This document shows, piece by piece, positions 22,905 to 39,301 of a stretch of 39,682 bases of DNA (the stretch's first letter is position 1; every line of letters begins with the position of its first letter). The notes beneath the pieces were generated by a model, which was not told the DNA's origin, did no database searches, and saw only the letters and a list, made by a program, of their open reading frames with translations. The stretch lies in the IMG/VR virus record IMGVR_UViG_3300044701_003470, positions 1-39,682 of that record; one strand, written 5' to 3'. Origin of the DNA: a virus. A program made the translations under genes and the position numbers.

Positions 22905-24938
22905 ATGCCAGATCCGACACAGGTCGCAAAGTTTAACCGCTGGGAGGCGATCAAGGCCTCCAACCCGTCTCTCAGCAACGCCGAGATCACCGCGCAGGTC
23001 GAGCGGGAGTTCTCGCAGCCGAGTTTCCTGAAGGGCGCGGCCCGCTCACTGGGACAGGGGCTTACGGCCCAGTTCGGCGACGAGATCGAGGCCGGCGTCC
23101 GCTCTGCCTTCAGCCCGCAGAGCTACCGCGAGATTCGCGACCAGATCCGCGGCGAGCAGGCCAGCTTTCAGGCCGACAACCCTAAGCTCTCGACGGCCCT
23201 CGAGATCGGCGGCGGGGTGCTCCCCGTCGTCGCCGGGACGCTGCTCGGCGGGCCGGCGGGTGGCGCGGCTGCAGCCAGCCGTTCGCTCCCCTCGTCGGTC
23301 GCCCGCGGGGCAATCACCGGGGCGGCCTACGGCGGGGCCTCGGGGGCTGGGATGGCCCCTGAGATGCGCGACGTGCCCCGCAGCAGCGCGATCGGGGCCG
23401 GGTTCGGGCTCGCGGCAGGTGGAGCCCTCCCGGTGGCTGGCCGGGCGATCGGCGCGGTCGGCACGGGGGCGATGAACGCGGCCGAAAAGGTGACCCGCGA
23501 CGTGGCGGCCTCTGGCGGCCGGATGGGAGCCCTCGCGCAACGCGCGGTGCCGGCGCTCGACGAGCGGGCGCAGCGGATCGCGCGGCAGAACATCACCCAG
23601 AAGCTCGCCGACGATATGCTCACCCCCGAGCAGGCGGCCGAGAACCTCGCCGGGATGCAGGCTCGCGGGGTGCCGGCTGCGGTGGTGGACGCCGGCGAAG
23701 AGAACACCCTCGAGCTGCTCAACAGCTCGTATCTGGTCCCGGGCCCGGGCCGGCGGGTGGCCTCGCAGTACGCGCAGGAGCGAGTCTCCGGGCTGGCTGG
23801 GCGGCTTTCCGAGCAGGTCGAGCGGCTCTCCGGGGCGCGCATCCAAAACCTCAACCGGGTGCTCGACGACATCGCCGAGAGCCGGAAGGCTCCCGCGCGC
23901 GAGATGTACACGCAGGCCTTCACCGCGGGCCCGGTGGCGCTCAGCGACGACACGGCCCGGCTGCTGACCTCGCCGGCGACCGGCGACCTCCGGCGCGCGT
24001 GGACCGAGGGCTGGCGGCGCTCGACGCTCGACGAGGAGGTCTACGGCAACCTTCCGGCGCTCAAGCCGCTCTTCGGGGCAGCGAAGGACGCTGCGGGCAA
24101 GGAAACCGGCGAGCTGGCGCTGATTCGCCCGATCGAGGTCCGCGACATTGACTACATCAAGCGCGGGCTGGACGCTCAGATCAACCGCGAGCTGGGCCGG
24201 GCCAAGCCTGACGGCGATCTCGTCCGGCTGCTCACGGGCGCGAAGAACAAGCTGCTCGCCGAGGTGGACGGGCAGGTCCCGATCTACCGCGAGGCCCGGC
24301 AGTTCTGGTCCGGGAAGCAGGGTCTGATGGACGCCCTCAACCGCGGCAAGCGCTTCCAGTTCGGCAGCGACGACGACTTCGCCGATCTCGTGCAGACGAT
24401 GACCCCCGACGAGTTGCTGATGTACCGCCGCGGGGTCGCGAACCAGATCGCCGAGACGCTCCGCCGGCGCGACGGGCGCACGGTCTCGACGCTTAACGTG
24501 CTCACCGATCCCACCGCGCAGAACCGGCTTCGGCAGATCTTCCCGGACGAGGAGAGTTTCAACCTCCTCAAGCGGGTGGTGGACGACGAGGTGAAGGGCG
24601 CGGCTCCCTATCGCCGGCTCACGGGCCAGTCGCAGACGGCGCAGAACTTGGCCGGGCTGGGCGATCTCGTGATGACCTCGAGCGCGGGTCTCCCGCTCGA
24701 TCCGAAGACGGCCGCGATGCAGTCGCTCTTCAACCTGATGTCTGGCAACACCCGGGCAGTGGCTGAGCAGCAGGCGAAGCTGCTGACCCGTAGCGGCCCG
24801 CAGGGCGTGGACTTCCTGCGGAGATTGCAGACGGACCCCAACGCGCTCGATCGCACCCTCCGGGCGCTGATCGGGCCCTCGTCGGGCGGGGTGCTCGGCG
24901 GGCGTATCGGTGGCAGCTTCGGGAGTGGCTCTCGATGA
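22905..24938 (+). CDS. Large internal/ejection protein with Gly-rich hydrophobic segments, 677 aa
   Basis: Residues about 85-205 include several Gly/Ala-rich hydrophobic stretches (LEIGGGVLPVVAGTLLGG, AAYGGASGAG, IGAGFGLAAGGALPVAG) that resemble the membrane-inserting parts of podovirus ejection proteins. The rest is a long helical body with Arg/Glu/Gln-rich segments (FSAVVLSGARIQ-like positions near 300, REARQFWSG near 460). The C-terminus is Gly/Ser-rich. It overlaps the next gene by four bases (ATGA). The function is inferred from composition and context only. Confidence 0.6.
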   Translation: MPDPTQVAKFNRWEAIKASNPSLSNAEITAQVEREFSQPSFLKGAARSLGQGLTAQFGDEIEAGVRSAFSPQSYREIRDQIRGEQASFQADNPKLSTALEIGGGVLPVVAGTLLGGPAGGAAAASRSLPSSVARGAITGAAYGGASGAGMAPEMRDVPRSSAIGAGFGLAAGGALPVAGRAIGAVGTGAMNAAEKVTRDVAASGGRMGALAQRAVPALDERAQRIARQNITQKLADDMLTPEQAAENLAGMQARGVPAAVVDAGEENTLELLNSSYLVPGPGRRVASQYAQERVSGLAGRLSEQVERLSGARIQNLNRVLDDIAESRKAPAREMYTQAFTAGPVALSDDTARLLTSPATGDLRRAWTEGWRRSTLDEEVYGNLPALKPLFGAAKDAAGKETGELALIRPIEVRDIDYIKRGLDAQINRELGRAKPDGDLVRLLTGAKNKLLAEVDGQVPIYREARQFWSGKQGLMDALNRGKRFQFGSDDDFADLVQTMTPDELLMYRRGVANQIAETLRRRDGRTVSTLNVLTDPTAQNRLRQIFPDEESFNLLKRVVDDEVKGAAPYRRLTGQSQTAQNLAGLGDLVMTSSAGLPLDPKTAAMQSLFNLMSGNTRAVAEQQAKLLTRSGPQGVDFLRRLQTDPNALDRTLRALIGPSSGGVLGGRIGGSFGSGSR

Positions 24939-27265
24939 TGACTGATCCAGATCCGATTGAACTCGAGCGCCGCCGGAGGCTGGAAGCGCTGCAGCGGATG
25001 ATTGGGATGCCCGCAGACGCCACGCGCGTCTCGCGTCCCGGTCCGCCGCAGGGGCCGCCGGTTCCGACCATCAGCGGCCTGCCATCCGGTACGCCGATGC
25101 CGGTCGAGCCTGAGGAGCCCGGGATACTGGACCGCGCGCTGAGCCTTGGCCGCACCGCGCTCGACTTCACGCCGATAGGTGACGTGCTTGCCGCCGGCAA
25201 TGCTGGGCGGGATGTGGCGCGCGGGAACTTCGGCTCTGCCGCCGTGAACCTGCTCGCCTCGGCTCCGGTGATCGGGGTCGTCGGTGACGCCCTGAAGAAA
25301 AAGAAGAAGGCAACCGCGGCGCTCGAGGCGCTGCTCCCCGGCCAGTCGATCACGCGCGCGACCAGAAGCGGCGGCGCGATCCCGAACTTCCGCGAGATGT
25401 CTCCCGAGGCCGCGCTCGAGGCCGCGCGTCGCGGCGAGCACCTGCGCCGGGTCGGGCAGGCCGACCAGTACGTCGGCGCACCGCGTGGCGTCGAGAGCCC
25501 CAAGCAGCTCCGCGAGCTGCGCGAGAACTACGACCAGCTCGTCGAGCGTGGCGTCGAGGGCGGTGACTGGTACGACCGCGCGCAGGCCTCGGTCGTCGAG
25601 GCGGCCGGATACAACCCGGAGCGTCAGCGACTCTTCGCGCAGGAGGCTGGGCTGTGGAGCGCGCAGGCGAACCCTGACACGAACCTCGGGTTCCTGCTGC
25701 AGGGTCACAACGCCTACGAGCGCGGGCTGCCGCTCGATCGCGTCCGCACGGGTCAGCAGGCGCGGACGTACCGCACGGCGCGCGATGCCGGCACGGACAT
25801 TCGCCTCGGACCCAAGACTGGGGAGTACGTCAACAAGTTCGACCCGACGTCGAAGACCTCGCACATCTCGACGAACGACATCTGGCACTTCCGCAACTGG
25901 GACTACAAGACGCCCGACGGCAAGCCGTGGAGCGCGGGCGGGACGCCGCAGATGCACTCGTTCGTGGATGCGGAAAGTATGCTCGCGGCGGATCGCGCCA
26001 ACGCGCGCGCGCTGGGCGGACGCGCGGACTGGGATGCTGCCTCGACACAGGCCGCGCCGTGGGTCTACGCGAAGGGCGCTGACCTGCACAAGAAGTTCCC
26101 GAAGCGCTTCCCGACGCTGCAGGACGGCATTGACGAGGCCGCCAAGACCTACAACGACTCCTTCCCGAAGTACGCCGCGGCCGGCACATACGAGGCGATC
26201 CCGGGGGCCGGCACCGGACACCTCGAGGGTATCGTCGGCGCACCCGCGGAGCTCCGCGCAGCCTATTCCTCCGATCCGCGCTCGTCGTGGACGCTGCTCA
26301 GCGAGCAGGAGCGCGCGTGGCGCGATCTGCTCCCGGAGCATCTGCGCGTGGCCGACAACCGCGACGTGCTGTATGACGCGGCCGGGATGTACCCGGTGCG
26401 GTCGAAGAACGCGACGGGATTCTTCCGTCCGAGCCCGGGCGCGCCGCTCGAGACCAACCCGGCGTTCGTCGCGCGGCCGCTTGTTGACCTCACGAACTCG
26501 CCCGCCGGCTCGGTGATGACTGAAGGGTCGCAGCGCACGATGGACGCGGTCGAGGCGCTACGGTCCTATCTCGACGCGCAGAACGCCGGGGCGTGGCACA
26601 AGACGCTCCCGGCTGGCAGGACTCGCGAGGCGACCTCTATGCGAGTCCCGATGAATCGGCAGCTCAGCGAGGGTGAGGTGCGGTCGCTGGCTGACCTCGT
26701 CGAGCCGCGTGGCTTCGGCGTGGTCGATACCGGCGACGGCGTCACGCTGCTCAACTTTGGCGAGGGGCCGAGCAGTGGTGCGGATCTCGCCAAGCTGATC
26801 AAGGGATCAAAGGAGACCCCCGGGCTCGGCTCGCAGATCGAAGACGTTCTCCCGGATGCCACTGGGCCGCTCGATCGCGTCCGGGTGAACTCTGGTTATG
26901 TGATGCAGGACGAAGGCTTCAATCCGCTGCTCCGCGCCGAGAACGCCGGCACGGGGCGGGCGACCGCGGCACTCGAGCGCTACCTAACAGATCCTGCGGT
27001 TCCAGCGCTACTCGACAAGCTGGACGCCGATCCTCGCCTCCGGCAGGCCGCGCTCGATCGCTTCACCCGCGACGCCGACTACGCCCAGCAGCTCGGCACC
27101 GCCACGCGCGAGGACATCCAGCGCGCGCGGCAGATCATCGCGGAGCGTGGTCTCAAGGGGCTGTTTGAGGCGGCGCGTCAGGGCGCGGTGCTTCCGGTGC
27201 TGGCGATTGGGATTCTGGGAGGGGCTGCGGCGACGGCTCCGCAGAACGAGGGGCCGACCGGGTGA
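24935..27265 (+). CDS. Large ejected-protein candidate sharing an N-terminal module with 27449-29362, 776 aa
   Basis: Residues 1-115 form a module nearly parallel to the start of the downstream 637-aa protein. Shared blocks are IELERRRRLEALQ, PADAT, GLPxGTPMP, RTALDFTP and a GNxGSAA segment. After residue 120 the two have no visible similarity. The body here has conserved-looking blocks (AQEAGLWSAQANPDTNLGF, HISTNDIWHFRNWD, PWVYAKGADLHKKF) and a hydrophobic C-terminus (VLPVLAIGILGGAAA). I do not recognise the payload domain. The common head may be a virion-loading or ejection signal. Confidence 0.65.
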   Translation: MMTDPDPIELERRRRLEALQRMIGMPADATRVSRPGPPQGPPVPTISGLPSGTPMPVEPEEPGILDRALSLGRTALDFTPIGDVLAAGNAGRDVARGNFGSAAVNLLASAPVIGVVGDALKKKKKATAALEALLPGQSITRATRSGGAIPNFREMSPEAALEAARRGEHLRRVGQADQYVGAPRGVESPKQLRELRENYDQLVERGVEGGDWYDRAQASVVEAAGYNPERQRLFAQEAGLWSAQANPDTNLGFLLQGHNAYERGLPLDRVRTGQQARTYRTARDAGTDIRLGPKTGEYVNKFDPTSKTSHISTNDIWHFRNWDYKTPDGKPWSAGGTPQMHSFVDAESMLAADRANARALGGRADWDAASTQAAPWVYAKGADLHKKFPKRFPTLQDGIDEAAKTYNDSFPKYAAAGTYEAIPGAGTGHLEGIVGAPAELRAAYSSDPRSSWTLLSEQERAWRDLLPEHLRVADNRDVLYDAAGMYPVRSKNATGFFRPSPGAPLETNPAFVARPLVDLTNSPAGSVMTEGSQRTMDAVEALRSYLDAQNAGAWHKTLPAGRTREATSMRVPMNRQLSEGEVRSLADLVEPRGFGVVDTGDGVTLLNFGEGPSSGADLAKLIKGSKETPGLGSQIEDVLPDATGPLDRVRVNSGYVMQDEGFNPLLRAENAGTGRATAALERYLTDPAVPALLDKLDADPRLRQAALDRFTRDADYAQQLGTATREDIQRARQIIAERGLKGLFEAARQGAVLPVLAIGILGGAAATAPQNEGPTG

Positions 27266-27448: not shown

Positions 27449-29362
27449 ATGAACCCTGACGAGATTGAGCTGGAACGCCGCCGGCGGCTCGAGGCCCTGC
27501 AGCAGATGCTGCGCGGCCAGCGCGCGCCGGCCGACGCCACGAGCACCCGGCAGCCGGGCCCGCCGCGGATGCCTGAGGCGACGATCCGCGGGCTTCCTGC
27601 CGGCACCCCGATGCCGCGCGAGGAGGACCCGGGGAGCTGGGAGTCGCTGCTCAAGAAGGCCGGCCGGGACACCCGGACCGCGCTCGACTTCACGCCGGCG
27701 GGAGACTTCCTCGCCGCCGGAGACGCAGGGCGGGAGCTCTCGCGCGGGAACCTCGGATCGGCGGCGATCAGCGCCCTCGCTGCAGCGGTCCCGTTCGCCG
27801 GCGTCCCGAAGAGCTTCACCGAGGGGCTCTACTCGCGTCTGGGGCGCGCGATCGAGTCGTCCCCCTTCAAGCGCGGGACCGCGGAGCAGTGGAAGGCGCA
27901 GCTCTCCAAGGGCGTCTCGGGCAGCGAGCGGGAATGGACCGGAATCGACCGGCTGCTCGAGGAGAACGCCGGCCGCCCGCTCACCAGCGAGCAGCTCAGC
28001 GACGTCTTCAATCGTGGGCGGATCGATCTGGACGAAGTGCGGCTTGAGGTGACACCGCAGCAGGAGCAGAAGCTGAATGAAGAAAGATACTGGATCGAGT
28101 CCGGCGAGAAGGCCGAGTTTGAAAAGTATCGTGCCGGTACTAACGCCTCTCAGCTTGAGGCTCGACTTAGTGAGCTTCAGCTTGAAGACGCAAACGACCT
28201 AAGGCGCAGCGGCTATGAAAACGCATCTGCTACAGCGGCTGATCGCGATCGGCGCTGGGCGGAGCGGGTAACAATCGGCAACGAGCTGGACGATATACGC
28301 AGGGCCGCTGATACAATGGGCTACCGGTGGTCGCAGCCGTACCGTGAGGAGCTTTCCGAGCTCGCCGACCGATTTCCGAGGTACGAGGACTATACGCAGC
28401 CCGGAAAGAAGAGCAACTACCGCGAGATCCTGCTCACTCTTGGAGAGCATAAGCCAAATCGCGCGATCGAGAGACTAATGGCCCAAAGGGATGAGTTCTT
28501 TGCGCTGCGCGAGGGAATGAGCCCTCTTGATTGGTCTCCTGAATCACACGCTGAGCTCAACGCGATCAACAATCAGTTGGCGGCGATTGACCCGGGATTC
28601 TTCGGTGGAGAGCGCCGGCAGTTTGATGATACATTCCGCTCTAATCACTGGGATGCCGGCGTCGAGAACCCGCTGCTGCACCTTCGGATGTCTGATCGCG
28701 TGAGCCCGGCCGGCGAAAGGACGCTGTTCGTCGAGGAAATGCAAAGCGACTGGCATCAAAGGGGGCGGAAGGAAGGCTACAAGCCACAGAACGAGCGAAT
28801 GGCCGCCGAGTTCAGGGCGCAGCGTCAGGCTTTATCGGACAACGCGATAGCGCAAAATCGCGAGATGACTCCCGACGAAAGGCGGCAGTGGGAAGAGCTC
28901 GGTGCGAAAGCGTTTCGTCTTTCTGGCACTGGCGTTCCCGACGCCCCGTTCAAGAAGACGGGAGAGTGGACCGAACTGGCGCTCAAGCGCGCGCTCGACG
29001 AGGCGGCCCGCGGCGACTACGACCGGATCGCCTTCGTGACGGGCGAGCAGGCCGCCAAGGTGATGGGAGTGAACGACGGCCCCGGCGGAATGCAGGGCTT
29101 TTACGATCAGATCGTGCCGACTGTTGTGCGCGACTACGCCAAGGCGCTTCGTGAGCCGATGCCGCTCGAGCCGATTACTGGCCTTCAATACGACGCCCGG
29201 CCGATCGGGCAGCGGAGCACTCCGCTGACGAACCCGTCCATCCGGATGACCCCGGAGCTGCGTCGCAAGATCCTCAGCGGCCAGCGGCTCCTGACCCCTG
29301 CCCTGCTCTTCGGCGGCGCGGCTGCATCCCTCGCCGATTGGCAGAACCAAGAAAACTACTAA
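27449..29362 (+). CDS. Polyvalent-type ejected protein with N-terminal shared module, 637 aa
   Basis: The N-terminal about 110 residues match the start of the 776-aa protein (IELERRRRLEALQ..., GLPAGTPMP, RTALDFTP, LAAGDAGREL). The C-terminal half contains VEEMQSDWHQRGRKEGY (near residue 430) and a WTELALKRALDEAARGDYDR segment followed by IAFVTGEQ (about 507-537). These are hallmarks of phage large polyvalent proteins, which carry varied effector domains and are thought to enter the host with DNA. The middle of the gene (about 28080-28960) is visibly richer in A/T and rare AAA/AGA/AAT codons, suggesting acquired sequence. A hydrophobic stretch lies near the end. Confidence 0.7.
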   Translation: MNPDEIELERRRRLEALQQMLRGQRAPADATSTRQPGPPRMPEATIRGLPAGTPMPREEDPGSWESLLKKAGRDTRTALDFTPAGDFLAAGDAGRELSRGNLGSAAISALAAAVPFAGVPKSFTEGLYSRLGRAIESSPFKRGTAEQWKAQLSKGVSGSEREWTGIDRLLEENAGRPLTSEQLSDVFNRGRIDLDEVRLEVTPQQEQKLNEERYWIESGEKAEFEKYRAGTNASQLEARLSELQLEDANDLRRSGYENASATAADRDRRWAERVTIGNELDDIRRAADTMGYRWSQPYREELSELADRFPRYEDYTQPGKKSNYREILLTLGEHKPNRAIERLMAQRDEFFALREGMSPLDWSPESHAELNAINNQLAAIDPGFFGGERRQFDDTFRSNHWDAGVENPLLHLRMSDRVSPAGERTLFVEEMQSDWHQRGRKEGYKPQNERMAAEFRAQRQALSDNAIAQNREMTPDERRQWEELGAKAFRLSGTGVPDAPFKKTGEWTELALKRALDEAARGDYDRIAFVTGEQAAKVMGVNDGPGGMQGFYDQIVPTVVRDYAKALREPMPLEPITGLQYDARPIGQRSTPLTNPSIRMTPELRRKILSGQRLLTPALLFGGAAASLADWQNQENY

Positions 29363-30889: not shown

Positions 30890-30918
30890 TTGCGCTTAGC
30901 CGTCCGCGGGCGTATTCT
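30890..30918 (+). promoter_or_regulatory. Rightward promoter for the 30967-35523 block
   Basis: TTGCGC (30890-30895) and TATTCT (30913-30918) are separated by an ideal 17 bases. The predicted start near 30925 lies at the edge of the palindrome 30927-30944. The promoter sits in the 105-base gap between lysis genes and the HTH gene. Confidence 0.65.
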
Positions 30919-30926
30919 TGTCGGCA

Positions 30927-30944
30927 CGGTGCAACAACGCACCG
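30927..30944. promoter_or_regulatory. Operator palindrome CGGTGC-AACAAC-GCACCG
   Basis: Arms of six bases are separated by AACAAC, starting eight bases downstream of the -10 box. The palindrome resembles the iteron GGTGCAACAGATGCACC at 36057-36073, with the central part one base shorter. The placement over the transcription start predicts repression. Confidence 0.7.
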
Positions 30945-30966
30945 CACACACTTTACCCCACGCGCA

Positions 30967-31176
30967 ATGAAAAAGGAGGGCAAGGCCGTCGCCCTATGCG
31001 ACCGCCGACGGCGGCGGTTGCGGGCTGCACTTGCGATGGCTGGAGGCACTGTGGCGGAGTTCGCCGCGGAGCTGGGCGTTAGCCACTCGCACCTGAACTA
31101 CGTCCTCCGGGGGCTCCGCGCTTCCCCCCGGATCGAGGCCGCGATCGAGAAGCGCATCCGCGCCGTTAAGGCGTAA
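30967..31176 (+). CDS. Small helix-turn-helix regulator, 69 aa
   Basis: The protein begins with a basic patch (MKKEGKAVALCDRRRRRLRAALAMAGG) and has an HTH at about residues 27-48 (GTVAEFAAELGVSHSHLNYVLRG), followed by a basic end (IEAAIEKRIRAVKA). Size and pattern resemble Cro/C1-type or Arc-like phage regulators that bind DNA as dimers. It is the first gene behind the promoter at 30890, so it may control it or its opposite. It is the alternative binder of the GGTGCA palindromes. Confidence 0.7.
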   Translation: MKKEGKAVALCDRRRRRLRAALAMAGGTVAEFAAELGVSHSHLNYVLRGLRASPRIEAAIEKRIRAVKA

Positions 31177-31185
31177 CCCACCTGA

Positions 31186-31196
31186 CAGGAGACCAG
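31186..31196 (+). promoter_or_regulatory. Early-type ribosome-binding motif CAGGAGACCAG
   Basis: An exact copy on the plus strand, directly before the ATG at 31197. It shows that rightward early genes share the motif too. Confidence 0.8.
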
Positions 31197-31355
31197 ATGT
31201 ACAACGAAGAGCTGCAGGACCTGCACGAGATCAACCGCCTGCTGGAGCAGATGCGCCAGTCGCTCGCCGATCAGGCCGCGGCGTTGGCGGAGCTGCGCGC
31301 CGACCTGCTGCGCGAGCGGAGCCGGATCACCTCGCTCACCTACTGGGCCAACTGA
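31197..31355 (+). CDS. Small helical protein, 52 aa
   Basis: The whole protein is a predicted charged helix with heptad-like Leu/Ala (LQDLHEINRLLEQMRQSLAD, LAELRADLLRERSRI), ending in a Trp-containing tip (LTYWAN). It probably forms a coiled coil and may partner with a neighbour. CAGGAGACCAG precedes the ATG at 31197, and its TGA overlaps the next gene's ATG. The family is unknown. Confidence 0.65.
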   Translation: MYNEELQDLHEINRLLEQMRQSLADQAAALAELRADLLRERSRITSLTYWAN

Positions 31356-32029
31356 TGCCGCTCGTCATCGACATCGAGACCGTGCCGCTCGCGGACTCGC
31401 TCACGGCCTCCTACCCCACCGCGGACCGCACCCCGCCGGCGAACTACAAGTCGGAGGACACGATCGCAAAGTGGCGCGAGCAGGACCGCGGGAAGTGGGA
31501 GAACGAGCGCGTCAGCCAGTGCTCGCTCAACGCGCGGCTCGGGCGGGTGCTCTGCCTCGGGACCTCCGAGGGCGTCTTCACGGCCGTCGAGGAGGCCGAC
31601 GAGCCGGTCGTCCTGCAGGAGTTCTGGAATCGCGTCCTGCGCCACGACGGACAGATCGTGACGTGGAACGGGGGCTGGGATCTGCGCTTCCTGATCGTCC
31701 GCTCGCTCTATCACGACATCGAGCCCTCGGTCTCCGGGGAGACGGTGTCGCGCTGGTTCCGGAAGTACACCACCGAGCCGCACTTTGACTGCAAGGCCGT
31801 CCTGCTGAACTGGGACGTCCGGATCGCGGGCGAGGGGCTCGACCAGTGGGCCAAGTTTCTCGGCCTGCCGGGCAAGACTGAAGGGCTGTCGGGGGCCGAC
31901 GTCTACCCCCTCTACCTCGCCGGCCATCTCGACGAGATCGCCGACTACTGCGCCGCGGACGTCGCCGCGACGCAGGCCATCTACGAGCGCATCCAGCCGA
32001 TCTTCGGCTCGTCGCTCGCCACGCTCTAA
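31355..32029 (+). CDS. 3'-5' exonuclease, RNase H-like (PolB-exonuclease-related family), 224 aa
   Basis: This fold degrades DNA ends or single strands using two metal ions. Motif I is VIDIETVPL with D6 and E8. Motif II is TWNGGWDLRFL with D109. Motif III is YCAADVAATQ with D202 near an upstream Tyr. The residue pattern and length fit the predicted 3'-5' exonucleases related to the PolB proofreading domain, and DnaQ-like enzymes in general. It is next to the ERF annealing gene, so the two probably act together on phage DNA ends in recombination. It is not fused to a polymerase. Confidence 0.85.
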   Translation: MPLVIDIETVPLADSLTASYPTADRTPPANYKSEDTIAKWREQDRGKWENERVSQCSLNARLGRVLCLGTSEGVFTAVEEADEPVVLQEFWNRVLRHDGQIVTWNGGWDLRFLIVRSLYHDIEPSVSGETVSRWFRKYTTEPHFDCKAVLLNWDVRIAGEGLDQWAKFLGLPGKTEGLSGADVYPLYLAGHLDEIADYCAADVAATQAIYERIQPIFGSSLATL

Positions 32030-32031
32030 TC

Positions 32032-32040
32032 GGAGACCAG
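32032..32040 (+). promoter_or_regulatory. Early-type ribosome motif, shortened form GGAGACCAG
   Basis: The nine-base core is kept (the bases before it are C-G, not C-A), three bases upstream of the ATG at 32044. Confidence 0.7.
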
Positions 32041-32043
32041 CAG

Positions 32044-32817
32044 ATGCGTTTCTCGGAGTCCCTCGCTCACATCGCTCCAGCTCTCGGCAAGGCGCAGGGA
32101 GAGCTCAAGGCGATCCAGAAGGACAGCGTCAACCCGCACTTCAAGAACAGCTACGCCTCGCTCGACACGATCCTCGAGACCGTCCGCCCGGTGCTCGCGA
32201 AGCACGGGCTCTCGCTCGTGCAGGGCGCGCGGAGCGCCGACTACACCAGCAGCGGCTCGGTCAGCATCGAGGTCGAGACGATGCTCCTTCACGCCTCGGG
32301 CGAGTTCATCGTGAACTCCGCGGTGATCCCGCTCGCCAAGGTGGACCCGCAGGGCGCGGGTGGGGCCCTGACCTACGGCCGGCGCTACTCGGTGGCCGCG
32401 CTGCTCGCTCTTGCGACCGAGGAGGACGACGACGGCAACACGGCCAGCGGCTCGCCGGCTGCCCCGGTGCGTCAGGCTCCGCGCCCCGCTCCGGCCCCGC
32501 AGCGCCCCGCCCCGTCGGCCCCGAAGGCTGAGGGCCCGGTCTCGGTCGCCGAGGTCATCCAGCAGGTCGAGCAGGGGCTCGGGGCCGCGGTGGACCCGTC
32601 CTGCCCGAAGTGTCAGGGCAAGATGTGGGACAATCGGCAGGGCAAGAAGAACCCCAAGGCCCCCGACTTTAAGTGCCGCGACAAGCAGTGCGACGGGGTG
32701 ATCTGGCCGCCCAAGGGCGCAAAGGTCGCTCCTGCCCCGGCGAAGCGCTCTGAGCCGGCTCCTGAGCCGAGCTACGACGATTTCCCGCCCCCGACCGACG
32801 AAGACCTTCCCTTCTAA
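32044..32817 (+). CDS. erf: ERF-family single-strand annealing protein with zinc-like motif and SSB-like tail, 257 aa
   Basis: ERF proteins anneal complementary single strands in phage recombination and replication. The N-terminal domain has the family pattern HIAPALGKAQGELKAIQKDS then NPHFKNSYASLDTILETVRPVL (about residues 7-55). A Pro/Ala-rich linker follows (about 140-170). Then comes a Cys cluster (CPKC ... CRDKQCDGVIW, about 188-217) like a zinc ribbon, and an acidic tip DEDLPF. The tip resembles the SSB C-terminus that docks replication proteins. It pairs with the exonuclease just upstream. Confidence 0.85.
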   Translation: MRFSESLAHIAPALGKAQGELKAIQKDSVNPHFKNSYASLDTILETVRPVLAKHGLSLVQGARSADYTSSGSVSIEVETMLLHASGEFIVNSAVIPLAKVDPQGAGGALTYGRRYSVAALLALATEEDDDGNTASGSPAAPVRQAPRPAPAPQRPAPSAPKAEGPVSVAEVIQQVEQGLGAAVDPSCPKCQGKMWDNRQGKKNPKAPDFKCRDKQCDGVIWPPKGAKVAPAPAKRSEPAPEPSYDDFPPPTDEDLPF

Positions 32818-32831
32818 CCGAGGATGTAGCA

Positions 32832-34130
32832 ATGGGACAAGCCAAGACGTGGAACCCGTGGACGCCAAAGCAGGACGAGCTGCTGCGCGAGTTGATCGCG
32901 CAGCGGCTGACCGATCGCGCGATCGTCGAGCAGTTCGCGCGGCGAGGCGTCCCGCGGACGATTCACTCGGTGCGTGAGCGCATCAAGGCGCTCAGCCTGC
33001 CGATCCAGAGCGATCGGATGGTCTGGCAGGACATCGGCGACGCGCCGGCGGAGCAGGTGGCCGAGCCGATCGAGCTCCCGCCCCCGCCGCCCGATCCGAT
33101 CGAGGTGGAGCGCGAGCGGCAGGAGCGCATCCGGAACCTGCGCGCCGAGCGCGAGGCCCTGAAGGACATCGCCAGCGAGCGCTCGCTGCGGGCGACGCTC
33201 GAGAAGCTCTTCACGGATCTCGTGCCCAGCCTCGAGGCCCCGCCGGCCTTCGTGCCGCGCGTGGTGAAGGGTGCCAAGCCGACCCGCGAGAGCCTGCTGC
33301 TGCACCTCTCCGACTGGCACTACGGCGAGACCGTGGACGCGAGCGGGACGCGCGCGCTGAACGAGTACAACACCAGCATCGCGCAGCGGCGCATCAAGAC
33401 CGTCTTCGACGGGGCGCTCGGGATCGCCGAGAAGATGCGCGCCGGCGGGGGCTGGGAGTTCCCGCGGATGGTCGTGGCCGTCAACGGTGATATGGTCACC
33501 GGGACGATCCACGAGCTCGAGCGGCACGGCGACCATATGAACGTGATCTGGTCGGTCTACTACTGCGCGATGGAGCTCGCTGAGCAGCTCCGCCGGCTGG
33601 CCGCGGAGTTCCCGGAGGTCGATGTGTTCGTGACGAGCGGCAACCACGGCCGGCTCCCGGACGCGCGCAAGATGCAGTCGAAGGACCCGACGCGGAACTG
33701 GGACACGCTGGTCGGGCTGATCGCCAGAACCGCCCTCGAGAACGTGCCGAACGTGACGGTCACGATCCCGAACAGCTACGCGGTGACATACGAGGTCGAG
33801 GGCAACGTGGTGCTGCAGTCGCACGGGCACGACGTGAAGAGCTGGGGCGGCATCCCGTGGTACGGGATCAACCGGATCGTGACGAACTACAACGCCCTCG
33901 AGGCCAGCCGCGGCGGGCGGATTAGCGCCTACCTCTTCGGGCACTTCCACTCGGCGACCAACCTCACCTACCCGGGCGGCGAGGCCTTCGTAAACGGCTC
34001 GCTGATCGGCGGGACCGAGTGGACGGTGAACGCGCTCGGGAAGGCCGACCGGCCCTGCCAGATGATGCTGGGCTTCCACCCCGACCACGGTGTGACGCAC
34101 CGCTGGCCGATCTACGCGGAGGAGCTGTGA
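32832..34130 (+). CDS. Metallophosphoesterase (calcineurin-like, SbcD/Mre11-related), 432 aa
   Basis: The catalytic core carries the family's metal-ligand motifs in order: D161-W-H163 (SDWHYG), D220 (NGDMV), N271-H272 (SGNHG), H331/H333 (SHGHD) and H371/H373 (GHFHS). Mre11/SbcD-type enzymes trim or open DNA ends. The N-terminus (WNPWTPKQDELLRELIAQRLTDRAIVEQFARRG) looks like a helix-turn-helix. A Pro-rich acidic linker follows, an unusual addition that could give DNA binding. It lies in the recombination block behind the exonuclease and ERF genes. Confidence 0.85.
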   Translation: MGQAKTWNPWTPKQDELLRELIAQRLTDRAIVEQFARRGVPRTIHSVRERIKALSLPIQSDRMVWQDIGDAPAEQVAEPIELPPPPPDPIEVERERQERIRNLRAEREALKDIASERSLRATLEKLFTDLVPSLEAPPAFVPRVVKGAKPTRESLLLHLSDWHYGETVDASGTRALNEYNTSIAQRRIKTVFDGALGIAEKMRAGGGWEFPRMVVAVNGDMVTGTIHELERHGDHMNVIWSVYYCAMELAEQLRRLAAEFPEVDVFVTSGNHGRLPDARKMQSKDPTRNWDTLVGLIARTALENVPNVTVTIPNSYAVTYEVEGNVVLQSHGHDVKSWGGIPWYGINRIVTNYNALEASRGGRISAYLFGHFHSATNLTYPGGEAFVNGSLIGGTEWTVNALGKADRPCQMMLGFHPDHGVTHRWPIYAEEL

Positions 34131-34441
34131 CCCCGCAGCGCATCAAGTACCCGCCCCTCCCGAAGGAAGTGGAGGGGCCCGGCGGGACCGTCACGGTGAT
34201 CTGCACAAAGGCGGGCATCAAGCACGAGAACGCCGAGTGCTGGGGGCTCTATGACTCCGAGGCCCGCACGATCACGATCGATATGCGCGCGAAGCCGCGG
34301 CAGCGCTGGCTCACCTTCTACCACGAGCTGGTGCACGTCGCCCTGATCGACGCCGGGCTCAACAACGGCATCCCGGACCAGCTCCACGAGGCGATCTGCG
34401 ACGCCGTGGCGACGGCCCGGATGCGGGAGCGCTTCGGATGA
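34127..34441 (+). CDS. Small HExxH metallopeptidase-like protein, 104 aa
   Basis: GTG 34127 overlaps the stop of the phosphoesterase gene by four bases (GTGA). The motif FYHELVHVAL gives H66-E67-x-x-H70, the zinc site of a metallopeptidase, and HEAICDAVATAR follows about 20 residues later as a likely third ligand region. Short HExxH domains of this kind include ImmA/IrrE-type proteases that cleave phage repressors and SprT-like proteins. The repressor-cleaving idea is attractive but not provable; no HTH is fused. A shorter upstream in-frame extension lies inside the neighbour. Confidence 0.65.
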   Translation: MTPQRIKYPPLPKEVEGPGGTVTVICTKAGIKHENAECWGLYDSEARTITIDMRAKPRQRWLTFYHELVHVALIDAGLNNGIPDQLHEAICDAVATARMRERFG

Positions 34442-34710
34442 GCGCGCGCGAAGAGGAGGGACTCGTGCTGTACCCCGACATCGCTCACGCCTTCGTCGGG
34501 CTGATGGCGCGCTTCAGTGCGCTCGAGCCGGTCGCCTGCTACGACTTCGACGCGGTGATCGCCGGCTACGTCGAGGAGGGGATGACCGAGGAGGAGGCGC
34601 TCGAGCACTTCGAGTACAACGTGATCGGGGCGTGGGTCGGGGAGCGGACCCCCTGCTTTCTGCGCCGGATCTCCCTCGAGCAGGCGATCGAGGAGGCGGA
34701 GGCCGAATGA
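34438..34710 (+). CDS. Conserved-looking phage protein, 90 aa
   Basis: The protein starts MSAREEEGLVLYPDIAHAF and contains YDFDAVIAGYVEEGMTEEEALEHFEYN followed by VIGAWVGERTPCFL, patterns I associate with a small phage protein of unknown role. It is strongly acidic and mostly helical. It overlaps both neighbours by four bases, so it is part of a translationally coupled string. Confidence 0.65.
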   Translation: MSAREEEGLVLYPDIAHAFVGLMARFSALEPVACYDFDAVIAGYVEEGMTEEEALEHFEYNVIGAWVGERTPCFLRRISLEQAIEEAEAE

Positions 34711-34883
34711 TCGCGCGCGACGAGAGCTACTGGGCCTTCGGGCTGGGCGTGATGACGGGGCTGTCGGCAAGCCTCGCGCTGATCGCCGCGGTGGTCTGGA
34801 TCGAGGGCTCGCGTGAGGCCGAGCGGCCGCGATTCCTCGAGCCCAAGTGCACGACGGTCATCCAGCATACGGTGCGGCGATGA
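34707..34883 (+). CDS. Small single-pass membrane protein, 58 aa
   Basis: ATG 34707 overlaps the stop of the preceding gene (ATGA). A hydrophobic segment at residues 8-29 (YWAFGLGVMTGLSASLALIAAVVWIEG) anchors it, and the C-terminal half is basic with one Cys. A longer in-frame reading from 34632 lies inside the neighbour and is rejected. The function is unknown. Confidence 0.6.
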   Translation: MIARDESYWAFGLGVMTGLSASLALIAAVVWIEGSREAERPRFLEPKCTTVIQHTVRR

Positions 34884-35026
34884 ACGGGAAGGGATCAGCG
34901 CGCCGGCCGGGGGCGATCTCGGAGTCTGAGTGGGCGAAGCGCTGGGCGGAGACGTTCGGGCGCAAGCCTGAGCCTGAGCCGCAGCCTGACACCCCGCCCG
35001 ATCAGGAGCCGGGGGCTGAGCCGTGA
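34880..35026 (+). CDS. Small acidic Pro-rich protein, 48 aa
   Basis: ATG 34880 overlaps the previous stop. The first half (MNGKGSARRPGAISESEWAKRW) could be a helix; the second is a PEPEPQPDTPPDQEPGAEP tail, disordered and acidic. It ends with a four-base overlap of the next start (GTGA). Linker-like and of unknown function; kept because both ends are coupled. Confidence 0.55.
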   Translation: MNGKGSARRPGAISESEWAKRWAETFGRKPEPEPQPDTPPDQEPGAEP

Positions 35027-35523
35027 GCCCGCTCGCGATCGCCACGGTGACGGGCCAGCGCCACGAGCGCCGCGGCCGGGCCCTGCTGGGGGCCTTCGCT
35101 GAGCGCTTCAAGGCCCAGCTCGTCGCTACCCCGCCCACCGTCACGGCCCCGATCGACGGGCTCCTGACGCGCCGTGGGGAGCTCGTGGCGGTCGCCGAGG
35201 CCAAGACCCGCACCAGCTACGACCTGCCGGCGATCGAGCGCTTCGGGACGTATCTCGTGACCGCGGAGAAGCTGCAGCAGCTCGTGCAGGTCGGCGGGCT
35301 GCTGGGGGTGCCGTCGTTCGTGGTGACCGAGCTGTCGGACTGCGCCCGGCTCTACTGGCAGGTGGGCGACGCCGGCGGGGCCCGGGTGATGGACTGGGAG
35401 GAGCGCCCGACGCGGACGCTCGCGACCAGTGTGGGAGCTGAGACGGTGGTCCGCGTGAACGCCTTCCTGCCCCTCGATCGGGCGGTGCTGTGGGGGCAGC
35501 CGCTGGGTGTTTCGCGTGATTGA
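35023..35523 (+). CDS. PD-(D/E)xK nuclease-like protein, 166 aa
   Basis: The motif IDGLLTRRGELVAVAEAKTRT (about residues 45-64) supplies the aspartate and the ExK catalytic pair of this nuclease superfamily (Asp46, Glu60, Lys62). A helix and strand pattern follows (YLVTAEKLQQLVQVGGLLG). It lies just before the initiator promoter, in the recombination block, so a role in DNA end processing or nuclease defence is plausible. The last codons overlap the TTGACT -35 box. The superfamily call is moderate as the fold is very divergent. Confidence 0.6.
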   Translation: MSPLAIATVTGQRHERRGRALLGAFAERFKAQLVATPPTVTAPIDGLLTRRGELVAVAEAKTRTSYDLPAIERFGTYLVTAEKLQQLVQVGGLLGVPSFVVTELSDCARLYWQVGDAGGARVMDWEERPTRTLATSVGAETVVRVNAFLPLDRAVLWGQPLGVSRD

Positions 35524-35548
35524 CTTTCCACCGATTCGGTTGTATAAG
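35520..35548 (+). promoter_or_regulatory. Promoter for the replication operon
   Basis: TTGACT (35520-35525) and TATAAG (35543-35548) are separated by an optimal 17 bases, close to the sigma70 consensus. The -35 box overlaps the stop of the preceding gene. The expected start is about 35555, where the palindrome 35556-35574 begins. Confidence 0.8.
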
Positions 35549-35555
35549 TACCCCT

Positions 35556-35574
35556 GCGGTGCACTTTGCACCGC
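35556..35574. promoter_or_regulatory. Operator palindrome GCGGTGCA-CTT-TGCACCGC
   Basis: A perfect 8-bp inverted repeat with a 3-base centre, starting seven bases after the -10 box, i.e. over the transcription start. It contains the same half-sites as the iterons in the downstream gene (GGTGCA/TGCACC), only closer together. Confidence 0.85.
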
Positions 35575-35616
35575 GACCGACCCTGTTGGAGCAGGCGTCG
35601 GACGCCGCTGTTCTGG

Positions 35617-35684
35617 CCCCCGCTCTCAGGGTGCCTTCGTCGCGACTGGTCTCCCGACGAAGGACTCCACCCCTGAGACGGGGG
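35617..35684 (+). ncRNA. Long leader hairpin with an apical loop complementary to the early ribosome motif
   Basis: In the initiator mRNA leader, CCTTCGTCG (35634-35642) pairs with CGACGAAGG (35655-35663). Below that, CTCAGGGTG pairs with CACCCCTGAG (one bulge) and CCCCCG with CGGGGG, giving an imperfect stem of about 25 bp. The 12-base loop holds CTGGTCTCC at 35646-35654, the exact complement of GGAGACCAG. The ribosome site of the initiator (AAAGGAG) follows 13 bases later. A cis regulator or an sRNA released from the leader are both possible; neither is demonstrated. Confidence 0.6.
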
Positions 35685-35703
35685 CCTTGCGCTGGAAAGG
35701 AGA

Positions 35704-36450
35704 ATGAGCCGCTTCGCTATCGTCCCAACCCACTGGCTCGAGAACGAGTCACTGACCCAGACCGACCGGATCGTGCTGGTGGCGCTCTCGTCGTTCGCCG
35801 ACGAGCACGGCTACTGCTGGCCGTCGGTCTCGTCGATCGCCCGGCGCTCTGGCGCGGCCGAGCGCACGGTCCAGTACAGCCTCAAGCGACTGGCCGAGCT
35901 CGGTGCCGTCCGGGTCGCCGAGCGCAGCCGTGAGCAGGGCGGGCAGACCAGCAACGCCTACTGGCTGCTCGGATACGACGCCCTCCCCGGGGTGCAGCAG
36001 GTGCAGGGGGGGGTGCAAGAGATGCACCCCGGGGGTGCAATAGATGCACCGGGGGGGGTGCAACAGATGCACCCTAACAGTACCAGTAAGAACAGACCCA
36101 GTGAAGCAACAACGACGACGACGACAACGCGCGGGCTGTCGTTCGACGATCAGGACCACCAGCAGGTCTACGAGGCCTACCGCCGGGCGCACCACAACCC
36201 CACCGCCTTCGACGCGACCCTCCGCGGCCTGACCCTGCCGATGGGCGGGACGCCGGTCAGCCTCGAGCAGGTCGGGGCGGCGCTCCTCGAGCTGGCGGCG
36301 AATAACGAGGGCTTCAACATATCGCGGCTCCGCGGCTACCTCCGCGGGCTCACCCGGGTCCGCAGCACGGCCGGCCAGTCGCAGGAAGACCGGCAGGCGC
36401 GGATGCTCCGGATTATGGAGGAGACGATGGCCGCCCGGGGGATCGCCTGA
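35704..36450 (+). CDS. Phage replication initiator (winged-helix, lambda O-like), with origin iterons inside the gene
   Basis: The protein (248 aa) has a winged-helix N-terminal domain (about residues 20-80: TQTDRIVLVALSSFADEHGY, SIARRSGAAERTVQYSLKRLAELGAV), like known phage initiators that open the origin and load helicase. A Gly/Gln/His-rich linker (residues 96-135) is encoded by the iteron array at 35991-36073, and a second helical domain follows. Iterons inside the initiator gene are a classic lambda O arrangement. The ATG has a strong AAAGGAG site. It overlaps the next gene, a probable loader, by one base. Confidence 0.85.
   Translation: MSRFAIVPTHWLENESLTQTDRIVLVALSSFADEHGYCWPSVSSIARRSGAAERTVQYSLKRLAELGAVRVAERSREQGGQTSNAYWLLGYDALPGVQQVQGGVQEMHPGGAIDAPGGVQQMHPNSTSKNRPSEATTTTTTTRGLSFDDQDHQQVYEAYRRAHHNPTAFDATLRGLTLPMGGTPVSLEQVGAALLELAANNEGFNISRLRGYLRGLTRVRSTAGQSQEDRQARMLRIMEETMAARGIA
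35991..36073. repeat. Iteron array (candidate replication origin) inside the initiator gene
   Basis: Three imperfect-palindrome units GGTGCAA-N-AGATGCACC lie at 36012-36028 (N=G), 36034-36050 (N=T) and 36057-36073 (N=C). A degenerate fourth, GGTGCAGCAGGTGCAGG, lies at 35991-36007. The unit starts are spaced 21, 22 and 23 bases, close to two helical turns. A stretch of CAA/CGA repeats (36107-36127) follows. The only variable inner base changes each time, as in selected iterons. The encoded linker is low complexity, so DNA rather than protein likely drives the repeat. Confidence 0.85.
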
Positions 36451-36905
36451 TGCGGACCCCGCTCACGAAGCACCAGATGCTCGAGCAGCTCACCCGGCTC
36501 AACCAAGTCTTCGGGAAGTTCGACGACGAGGAGCTCGCCCGGACCTCGGTGGGCTACTACGAGGCGCTCTCCGATCTCGACCTCGAGTCGCTCGCCGGCG
36601 CGGTCGGGATGGCGCTCCGGGCCGAGCAGCGCTTCCCCTACCCGGCCAAGATCCGCGAACACGCCGGGGAGTGGAAGAAGCACAACCGGATCGAGCTGGG
36701 CCCCGAGCCGCGGAAGGCCGCGGAGAGCCGGGTCTGCCCCTTCTGCAGCACCGAGCCGCGTCTCGCGTGGCTCGAGGTGGAGCGCAAGGACGGCCAGCCG
36801 CACGTTCAGCGCTTCATCGCTCCCTGCTATCTCGAGCAGCACCCCAAGGGAATGGGGGGCGTACCGTTCCCAGCCAACTTCGTCGCGTGGGTTGAGGAGG
36901 ACTGA
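36450..36905 (+). CDS. Probable helicase loader or replication partner, 151 aa
   Basis: The gene follows the initiator with a one-base overlap (TGATG), the position of lambda P-type loaders. Its N-terminal helices (MLEQLTRLNQVFGKFDDEELARTSVGYYEAL, DLESLAGAVGMALRAEQRFPYPAKIRE) resemble phage loader-like proteins (FPYPAKIRE is typical of this kind). A Cys pair in RVCPFCST and a C-terminal strand region follow. No helicase gene is present, so the phage would use the host helicase. Exact identity is inferred from order and pattern. Confidence 0.6.
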   Translation: MRTPLTKHQMLEQLTRLNQVFGKFDDEELARTSVGYYEALSDLDLESLAGAVGMALRAEQRFPYPAKIREHAGEWKKHNRIELGPEPRKAAESRVCPFCSTEPRLAWLEVERKDGQPHVQRFIAPCYLEQHPKGMGGVPFPANFVAWVEED

Positions 36906-37853: not shown

Positions 37854-38113
37854 ACGTCTCCTACCTGCACGAGTTCGCCGATCCCTTCGACGTCTTCGTG
37901 CGCGAGCTGGGCGAGGGCTCAGCGCGCGTGATGATCTGGGGCTCGGTGAACGCCAACCCGCAGTTCCTCGTCAGGCTCTACGGCTCGGGGAAGGTGGTCG
38001 TGGTGGATATGACCGACCTGCGCGTGGCCGGGAACCCGGGCGATCCGCGCGACGGGCTGCCGGGCTGGGAGATCCCCACGCTCTGGCGGCCGCTGCCGGA
38101 GCTCGAGCTATGA
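37850..38113 (+). CDS. Hypothetical protein, 87 aa
   Basis: A GTG start (MNVSYLHEFADPFDVFVRELGEG) is followed by a beta-rich fold (ARVMIWGSVNANPQFLVRLYGSGKVVVVDM) and a C-terminal Pro-rich tail. It overlaps both neighbours by four bases. I do not recognise it. Confidence 0.6.
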   Translation: MNVSYLHEFADPFDVFVRELGEGSARVMIWGSVNANPQFLVRLYGSGKVVVVDMTDLRVAGNPGDPRDGLPGWEIPTLWRPLPELEL

Positions 38114-38937
38114 TGCGTATCCTTTCGCTCGGTGCCGGCGTCCAGTCGTCTACGGTCGCGCTGCTGATCGCCTCGGGGGAGATCGCCCCAGTCGATGCGG
38201 CCATCTTCTCGGACACGCAGTGGGAGCCGCGCGGCGTGTACGACTGGCTCGACTGGCTGGATGCCGAGATCCAGCGCTCTCCGAACCCGTTCCCGATCCA
38301 CCGCGTCACGGCCGGCAATATCCGCGAGGGCATCCTCGCGAAGCAGAACGCGACGGGGCAGCGCTTTGCCTCGGTCCCGTGGTTTGTCCGCTCACCGGAC
38401 GGAACGATGGGGATGGTCCGCCGGCAATGCACCTACGAGTACAAGCTGGCCCCGCTCACGCGCGAGAAGCGCCGGCTGCTCGGCTACGCGCCGCGGCAGC
38501 GCATCCCGGTCGGATCGTGCGAGACCCTGATCGGGATCTCGCTCGACGAGGCGATCCGGGCAAAGGAGTCGATGGAGCGCTGGAACACGAACGTCTTTCC
38601 GCTGCTCGACCTCCGGATGACGCGGCAGGACTGCCTGCGGTGGATGGAGAGCAAGGGCTACCCGCGGCCGCCGAAGTCGTCCTGCATCGGCTGTCCGTTT
38701 CACTCCGACGCGCAATGGCGTGAGATCAAGGCAGATCCTGAGGCGTGGTCGGACGTGGTGCAGATCGATCGGGCGATCCGCAAACCAGTGGGCAAGATGC
38801 GCGGCGAGCAGTTTATGCACCGATCGGCGACCCCCCTCGAGGACGTGGACTTCTCAACGCCCGAGGAGCGCGGGCAGGGGACGCTGTTCGGCGAGGATGG
38901 GTTCGGCAACGAATGCGAGGGGATGTGCGGTGTCTGA
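38110..38937 (+). CDS. PP-loop (PAPS-reductase/adenine nucleotide alpha-hydrolase-like) protein, 275 aa
   Basis: The start MMRILSLGAGVQSSTVALL holds the PP-loop (SLGAGVQSS), which binds ATP and adenylates or activates a substrate in PAPS reductases, tRNA thiolases and DndC-like DNA-sulfur enzymes. Cys residues lie at RRQCTYEYK and at SSCIGCPFH, and the C-terminus has another Cys pair (ECEGMC). This may ligate a metal or iron-sulfur cluster, as in several PP-loop proteins. No Dnd partner is seen. A DNA or tRNA modification role is possible. Confidence 0.7.
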   Translation: MMRILSLGAGVQSSTVALLIASGEIAPVDAAIFSDTQWEPRGVYDWLDWLDAEIQRSPNPFPIHRVTAGNIREGILAKQNATGQRFASVPWFVRSPDGTMGMVRRQCTYEYKLAPLTREKRRLLGYAPRQRIPVGSCETLIGISLDEAIRAKESMERWNTNVFPLLDLRMTRQDCLRWMESKGYPRPPKSSCIGCPFHSDAQWREIKADPEAWSDVVQIDRAIRKPVGKMRGEQFMHRSATPLEDVDFSTPEERGQGTLFGEDGFGNECEGMCGV

Positions 38938-39301
38938 CGTGATCCCTCCCTTCCCCTGCACGAGCTGCGGGGCCTGCTGCCGGCGTCTGGGGCGGGTCCT
39001 CGAGCTGCGCGAGATCAACACCCTGCTCAACCCCGTGCTGGGGGAGGCGCTGGCAGCCTTCCCCTACGCGGCCCGGCCCGACGGCTCGTGCGAGAAGCTC
39101 GAGGGGAACCTCTGCTCGGTCTACGAGACCCGCCCCGATCTCTGCCGGGTGGAGGTGATGCGCGAGCGGCACCAGTTCTCGCGCGCGATCCACTACGCCG
39201 TGGCCGCTGAGTCGTGCAACGCGATGCAGGAGGAGGACGGGATGGACCCGTCCTACCGCGTCGCTCTTCCCGAGGAGCTCCCCGATGGCTGGCGACTTTG
39301 A
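38930..39301 (+). CDS. YkgJ-type Cys-rich (zinc/iron-binding) protein, 123 aa
   Basis: The protein has CTSCGACCRR near the start, then NLCSVYETRPDLCRVEV about 60 residues on. This is the CxxCxxCC...C...C spacing of the YkgJ/UPF0153 family that binds zinc or iron-sulfur. GTG 38930 overlaps the PP-loop gene by eight bases, so the two are co-translated and may act together. The family's function is poorly known; a metal or cluster donor for its neighbour is inference. Confidence 0.75.
   Translation: MSDVIPPFPCTSCGACCRRLGRVLELREINTLLNPVLGEALAAFPYAARPDGSCEKLEGNLCSVYETRPDLCRVEVMRERHQFSRAIHYAVAAESCNAMQEEDGMDPSYRVALPEELPDGWRL

Follow-up and report, generated by a model that had tools for sequence, protein, structure and literature searches.

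The stretch analysed here, a 39,682-base virus record (IMG/VR IMGVR_UViG_3300044701_003470; the window), carries within the gene of its HTH_36 (HTH, helix-turn-helix) initiator an origin of replication of the lambda type, which is well supported by sequence comparison. The half-site GGTGCA/TGCACC that builds the origin repeats, or iterons, also occurs in palindromes at two early promoters, promoter 1 of an exonuclease/ERF operon and promoter 2 of the initiator operon. A first-pass annotation had proposed that one palindromic half-site links both promoters to the origin, and that the initiator binds all of these sites. The origin part of that model stands, i.e., the HTH_36 initiator and its in-gene iterons; binding of the initiator to both promoters is not supported. 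The reading that we favour, and consider reasonably probable, combines the in-gene origin with a promoter 2 palindrome that would form the first stem of a conserved leader RNA, and a promoter 1 palindrome that would be a phage-specific operator or hairpin.

The initiator matches Pfam HTH_36 above the family cut-off (E 6e-13), as well as the PHROG replication initiation and O-like families phrog_270 and phrog_391. An AlphaFold2 model, built on an alignment of 12 initiators in which the N-terminal domains align and the C-terminal parts hardly do, features a winged helix (residues 9–90), a disordered linker of low confidence (93–141), and a helical C-terminal domain (150–244). The best Foldseek matches of the N-terminal domain include entries titled as initiator or Rep–DNA complexes (4pql, 4pt7, and 5kbj) and the N-terminal domain of DnaD (2v79), all of them weak (best E 2.5e-3), and a sequence search of the PDB returned chance matches only. 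Three 17-base iterons and one degenerate copy are present at 35991–36073, as the first-pass annotation had reported, and encode residues 96–123, within the disordered linker. The direct-9 arrangement of the degenerate copy is seen six more times in other initiators. Next to the iterons lies an A-rich stretch with an AT fraction of 0.49 (vs 0.33 window-wide; top 1.5% of 57-base windows) that is near-identical in the viral contig L242, the only close relative keeping both the HTH_36 initiator and promoter 2. The gene directly behind the initiator encodes a protein without a family match in Pfam or PHROG; at the matching position, the annotation of Microbacterium phage Lesiram lists a helicase loader and other phages have a P-like protein, and from this position the product is presumed to be a P-like helicase loader. 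We predict that the winged-helix domain binds the GGTGCA-N5-TGCACC units encoded in the protein's own disordered linker, that the A-rich stretch beside them melts, and that helicase loading presumably falls to the product of the neighbouring gene.

The same unit recurs in other phages. A scan of viral contigs for GGTGCANNNGATGCACC, which used no protein information, returned at least 120 loci, and the site lies inside an HTH_36 initiator frame in 37 of the 120 listed. For a control pattern of the same composition, an HTH_36 gene was present in 2 of 120 listed loci, with the site inside the gene in one. The initiator profile used for these loci was iterated on the test loci themselves; a single-sequence search with the N-terminus of the window's own initiator already recovered most of the initiator loci. 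Searching viral contigs directly with the protein gave no relatives of the initiator. Among 14 named phages picked by protein similarity, D_HF5_3, LESphi3, TC7, and PotUPM1 hold at least four GGTGCA or TGCACC units in the gene, and part of the LESphi3 array has a 17-base period. The repeats of these four phages (L293, L296, L301, and L302, respectively) lie inside genes annotated as O, helix-turn-helix, or hypothetical initiator genes. GGTGCA is not universal: in the members examined from Parageobacillus, Microbacterium (two), Rhodococcus, Halomonas, and Vibrio, the repeats differ or none is clear. In 32 other initiators of the GGTGCA type, inverted half-sites are spaced by 11 bases in 63 cases, by 12 in three, and by 15 in two, and never by 9 or 10; each of the 32 genes supplies at least one spacing-11 case by selection, and about half of the cases are additional pairs. 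The general rule that emerges is that GGTGCA-N5-TGCACC recurs as an origin unit in many HTH_36 initiators, the C-terminal domains of which have hardly anything in common.

The promoter hexamers match the consensus at 7 of 12 positions for promoter 1 and 10 of 12 for promoter 2, and neither passes a consensus promoter scan; both are taken as supported because they are conserved, promoter 1 in several relatives and promoter 2 in L242. The palindromes begin 7 or 8 bases past the −10 boxes, as had been annotated, but the geometry is not identical as claimed. The start-to-start distance between half-sites is 10 at promoter 1, where the right arm, CGCACC, has one mismatch, and 9 at promoter 2, as compared with 11 in the iterons, and a single palindromic half-site common to all three places does not describe them. 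The exact element common to both promoters is CGGTGC/GCACCG, with loops of 6 and 5 bases, at the expected transcription start. Under a Markov model of the window, 0.12 sites of the form CGGTGC-N3..8-GCACCG are expected and two are found (P ~0.01), and GGTGCA/TGCACC pairs number four against 0.02 expected. GGTGCA alone occurs 41 times in the whole window vs 20 expected, mainly on the plus strand of the left structural half, and because of this window-wide enrichment raw counts of the hexamer were left out as evidence.

The region 31355–36905 is syntenic with L242, with identities of 58% for the exonuclease, 53% for ERF, 50% for the phosphoesterase, 55–56% for the initiator, and 54–55% for the gene after it. 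The window and L242 leaders of the initiator mRNA align from the transcription start through to the start codon, and both fold far more stably than shuffled sequences (z −5.6 for the window and −3.1 for L242). The joint structure has 38 pairs with six double compensatory changes and none broken, while slid-alignment controls gave a pairing of 43–51%. This comparison shows a conserved predicted structure, composed of three stem-loops (SL1–SL3), in which the promoter 2 palindrome would be the 5′-terminal stem-loop, conserved for its pairing and not as an operator with GGTGCA. L242 has promoter 2 as TTGACA-N17-TAATCT, followed 7 bases past the −10 box, at the same position as in the window, by GCGGTG-N7-CACCGC. 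The outer arms are conserved at six of six positions, but the inner bases read ACTGACA, so that GGTGCA is lost at the promoter and the inner CA/TG pairs are broken. The leader has no match in Rfam, and a covariance model of the two sequences gave no further confident copies in 68 sources; L257 (23 bits) and a hairpin on the window's own reverse strand were treated as chance. A scan of viral contigs for the apical motif of SL2 gave three matches besides L242, two of which look like helicase-type coding sequence, and none, judged by eye, comes with a leader.

The leader most likely controls the amount of initiator, which could take place at the level of message stability, translation, or elongation. 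Such dose control is suggested by analogy with pSK41 plasmids, where the origin lies inside rep and the structured rep mRNA leader is under RNA-level control (PMC5703833). Attenuation after SL3 is possible in L242, because a T run follows (GGGGGCTTTTT), and doubtful in the window, where the corresponding sequence is GGGGGCCTTGCG. SL1 as an RNA stem is supported by L242, where the outer stem persists although the inner half-site pairs are broken, and by promoters resembling promoter 2 in other relatives, which have a stem at a comparable position (GCGATG/CATCGC in L269; GCGGUG/CAUCGC in L272, where one pair is G-U). Homology of this 5′ hairpin to SL1 is judged from position and similarity and is not proven. 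Further points weigh against the leader RNA and against SL1 as its first stem. The covariation in the leader rests on two sequences. SL1 is without compensatory change between the window and L242, and its identical arms would also suit an operator. The two promoter palindromes share CGGTGC/GCACCG beyond chance, which a pure hairpin reading leaves unexplained.

Promoter 1 has counterparts in relatives found via the exonuclease (L266–L269 and L272), which carry TTGCGC-17-TATACT, with TTGCGT as one variant, before an HTH-like gene and the exonuclease; this conservation supports promoter 1 as real. The promoter 1 region with its unusual −35 hexamer is kept across L266–L272, e.g., at ~4619–4660 of L269. 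The relatives have no CGGTGC palindrome at promoter 1, and no HTH_36 initiator in the contig stretches examined. Their small HTH-like first-gene protein differs from the 69-residue protein of the window, for which no relatives were found in named phages or viral contigs. Since the first-gene protein differs as well, loss of the palindrome does not separate the initiator from the 69-residue protein as the binder. Half-site pairs in L269–L271 (e.g., L269 6061) are located in a VRR_NUC gene and were set aside. The leader of transcript 1 contains a lone 6-bp 5′ hairpin and is otherwise unstructured. At promoter 1, the palindrome and the beginning of transcript 1 overlap. The site probably serves as an operator or as a 5′ hairpin particular to the window phage.

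The foremost competing explanation concerns the 69-residue Cro-like protein, a candidate autoregulator, which would bind CGGTGC-N5/6-GCACCG at both promoters, regulating its own operon and repressing the initiator operon, while the likeness to the iterons would be coincidental. The protein belongs to family HTH_3 and its gene lies directly behind promoter 1. In L266–L269 and L272, absence of the palindrome goes with a different first-gene protein, a change of site and protein in step. A plasmid precedent is the small XRE protein CopR, which represses a rep promoter (PMC5703833). However, no relative of the 69-residue protein was found in which to follow the co-variation, the spacing of the two sites differs by one base pair, and SL2, SL3, and the retention of only GCGGTG/CACCGC in L242 are left unexplained. 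We regard this explanation as unlikely.

The original proposal has the initiator bind the promoter palindromes as well as the iterons, firing the origin at low level and repressing both early operons at high level; it appears quite improbable. Exact GGTGCA half-sites are present at both promoters, the palindromes at both +1 regions are above chance, and the exonuclease-bearing relatives that show no HTH_36 initiator are also without the promoter 1 palindrome. Moreover, autorepression by way of inverted half-iterons at the rep promoter is known from some iteron plasmids. On the other hand, the promoter spacings of 9 and 10 occur in none of the 68 inverted pairs of the 32 initiators, where 11, or rarely 12 or 15, is found. 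Thirty-eight other HTH_36-bearing loci, nearly all of the GGTGCA type, have no GGTGCA palindrome at any promoter. Outside the initiator gene, these 38 loci hold only two GGTGCA/TGCACC pairs, neither of which resembles a promoter operator, and one is the site that brought in L030, whose initiator has no such pair. Upstream of 36 initiators, half-sites show no excess (7 found vs 7.0 expected). L242, the one relative that can be compared in this respect, keeps the initiator, the promoter, the outer arms, and GGTGCA units in the iteron region, fewer and degenerate, whereas at the promoter itself the GGTGCA half-site is gone. The first-pass annotation had itself named loss of the half-sites in relatives that keep the promoters as evidence against its model, and this loss is what L242 displays at promoter 2. 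At promoter 1 the evidence is ambiguous, because the relatives that keep the promoter and have no palindrome show neither the initiator nor the 69-residue protein. A promoter–origin link through a shared half-site at promoter 2 is not supported by these comparisons. Least probable is that the shared arms are coincidental and each transcript is shielded from decay by a GC-rich hairpin at its 5′ end, since, although both hairpins start at the expected +1, their loop lengths differ (5 and 6) as those of hairpins would, and the window holds 135 perfect 6-bp inverted repeats with loops of 3–8 bases, identical 6-bp arms at both promoters are only ~1% likely under the Markov model and most relatives have no palindrome at transcript 1.

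In related phages, a promoter resembling promoter 2 precedes a different type of locus. After this promoter (TTGACG-17-TACCTT in L269, TTGACG-17-TAGCTT in L272), L269–L272 have a 5′ hairpin and ~450 nucleotides (nt) of noncoding DNA, with no initiator. The presumed noncoding RNA (ncRNA) is 86% identical between L269 and L272, and 70–83% identical in matching parts of L266–L268, L274, and L281. A six-sequence consensus has 68 pairs, 17 of them with compensatory change. With a covariance model of its core, the ncRNA is recovered from 13 distinct relatives, and 23 of the 29 core pairs show double compensatory changes, values reached by 0 of 500 shuffles; the core alignment was fitted to the model, which inflates the covariation somewhat. 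A similar promoter and 5′ hairpin precede the ncRNA in those relatives examined. There is no match in Rfam, nor in named phages or plasmids, and this large structured ncRNA of window-related uncultured phages is apparently undescribed. Most of the relatives that share the exonuclease carry it. In both L242 (3230–3709) and L269 (3645–4130), the gene next upstream of the promoter encodes a DUF5843 protein (52% identity), and because its gene adjoins the promoter in both, we regard the initiator and ncRNA loci as syntenic. L243, which bears the ncRNA, also encodes a DnaB-type helicase.

The ncRNA is absent from the window and L242, the sole two of these phages seen with an HTH_36 initiator. Because the contigs are partial, this pattern of either initiator or ncRNA per phage is only suggestive. 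It raises the tentative, and in our view rather unlikely, idea that the early promoter with its 5′ stem-loop marks a replication-control locus holding either an HTH_36 initiator (window and L242) or an ncRNA that stands in for it (L243/L265, L266–L272, L274, L279–L282, L285, and L287–L289), with the window's leader corresponding to the 5′ portion of the ncRNA, as its remnant or counterpart. Cluster A mycobacteriophages, some with RNA-based prophage origins, offer a precedent, in that phages related to one another have either a Rep protein or a noncoding RNA that replication requires (PMC7157519). Unlike those RNA origins, which were defined by deletion and plasmid assays, the present case is an either/or distribution in partial contigs.

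The favoured combination of in-gene origin and leader RNA can be compared with several known systems. In lambda, the inverted repeats that bind O lie in the middle of the gene and are followed by an AT-rich region (PMC7466680). As for O and ori-lambda, the sites in the window lie mid initiator gene, each as an inverted repeat of 17–19 bp, with an AT-rich stretch and then the gene of a partner behind them. Unlike in lambda, the half-site is GGTGCA, and no autoregulatory role of the sites is established in the window. To our knowledge, lambda has no leader RNA of this kind. In analogy to the staphylococcal RepA_N plasmids (pSK41) and the chimeric Rep of pPR9, the origin boxes are central in the initiator gene and encode a linker. 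The N-terminal domain of pPR9 Rep is pfam13730 (HTH_36), and a winged-helix likeness to the window initiator is indicated by the weak Foldseek matches. The window is a phage rather than a plasmid, however, and the likeness as traced here covers the origin boxes, the winged-helix domain, and the mRNA leader, rather than an antisense RNA or the C-terminal domain. The put RNA of HK022 has its stem-loops close to where an early phage transcript begins (PMC9378689), and it is in this layout that the window leader resembles it. In contrast to put, the window has a third, long hairpin, and only one of its two transcripts has a leader RNA.

The coordinates of all features are collected in the table. 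The phosphoesterase gene at 32832–34130 adjoins ERF, and a recent report describes a phage phosphoesterase as an aid in evading host immunity (PMC12287305). Two adjacent long open frames, 24935–27265 and 27449–29362, have similar N-termini (M..PDPIELERRRRLEALQ.M / MNPDEIELERRRRLEALQQM), and from this likeness probably encode duplicated virion proteins; the former is without a PHROG match. A gene of the phosphoadenosine phosphosulfate reductase family (38110–38937; PHROG 424, E 1e-45) may be an auxiliary metabolic or modification gene. In L242, the homolog of the window's first open frame comes after the homolog of the late gene 38720–39301. Because of this gene order in one relative, the window probably represents a phage genome that is circularly permuted and close to complete.

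Table. Features of the window and ncRNA loci of related contigs
Feature	Position	Strand	Basis or remark
Promoter 1 (TTGCGC-N17-TATTCT), HTH/exonuclease/ERF operon	30890–30918	+	Same position and −35 hexamer in relatives
Promoter 1 palindrome, CGGTGC-AACAAC-GCACCG	30927–30944		At expected transcript 1 start, 8 bases past −10 box
69-residue HTH_3 (Cro-like) protein, first gene behind promoter 1	30967–31176	+	Pfam HTH_3, E 1.6e-5
Predicted 3′–5′ exonuclease (DNA_pol_B_exo2)	31355–32029	+	Pfam, E 7.5e-25
ERF single-strand annealing protein	32044–32817	+	Pfam, E 1.4e-25
Calcineurin-like phosphoesterase/exonuclease	32832–34130	+	PHROG 284, E 1.4e-42
Promoter 2 (TTGACT-N17-TATAAG), initiator operon	35520–35548	+	Kept in L242
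Structured 5′ leader RNA, ~150 nt	35554–35703	+	Conserved in L242 3718–3868
Promoter 2 palindrome, GCGGTGCA-CTT-TGCACCGC	35556–35574	+	7 bases past −10 box
SL1 (promoter 2 palindrome)	35556–35574		Conserved part GCGGTG-N7-CACCGC
SL2	35577–35601		Apical CTGTTGGAGCAG identical in L242
SL3	35615–35686		Long hairpin
HTH_36/lambda-O-type replication initiator, 248 residues	35704–36450	+	Pfam, PHROG, AlphaFold2 model
Degenerate iteron, GGTGCA-N5-TGCAGG	35991–36007		TGCA at normal distance, poor right arm
Iteron 1, GGTGCA-N5-TGCACC	36012–36028
Iteron 2, GGTGCA-N5-TGCACC	36034–36050
Iteron 3, GGTGCA-N5-TGCACC	36057–36073
A-rich strand-asymmetric stretch, presumed unwinding region	36074–36130	+	24 A and 4 T of 57
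Presumed helicase loader (P-like), directly behind initiator	36450–36905	+	By position
ncRNA	L269 4131–4590; L272 7206–7670; L268 6750–7210; L267 6740–7210
ncRNA	L281 6900–7375; L274 1750–2110; L265 4050–4580; L285 120–500
ncRNA cores	L266, L279, L282, L287, L288

One repeated hexamer thus has two separable readings, origin iteron and RNA stem, and a palindrome found at +1, as the case warns, may turn out to be an RNA stem. Because GGTGCA-N5-TGCACC recurs in many HTH_36 initiators, this unit makes it possible to find origins in the sequences of uncharacterised phages. The parts worth following are the leader RNA and the ncRNA of the sister phages, which together raise the question of protein-based versus RNA-based control of replication in related phages.

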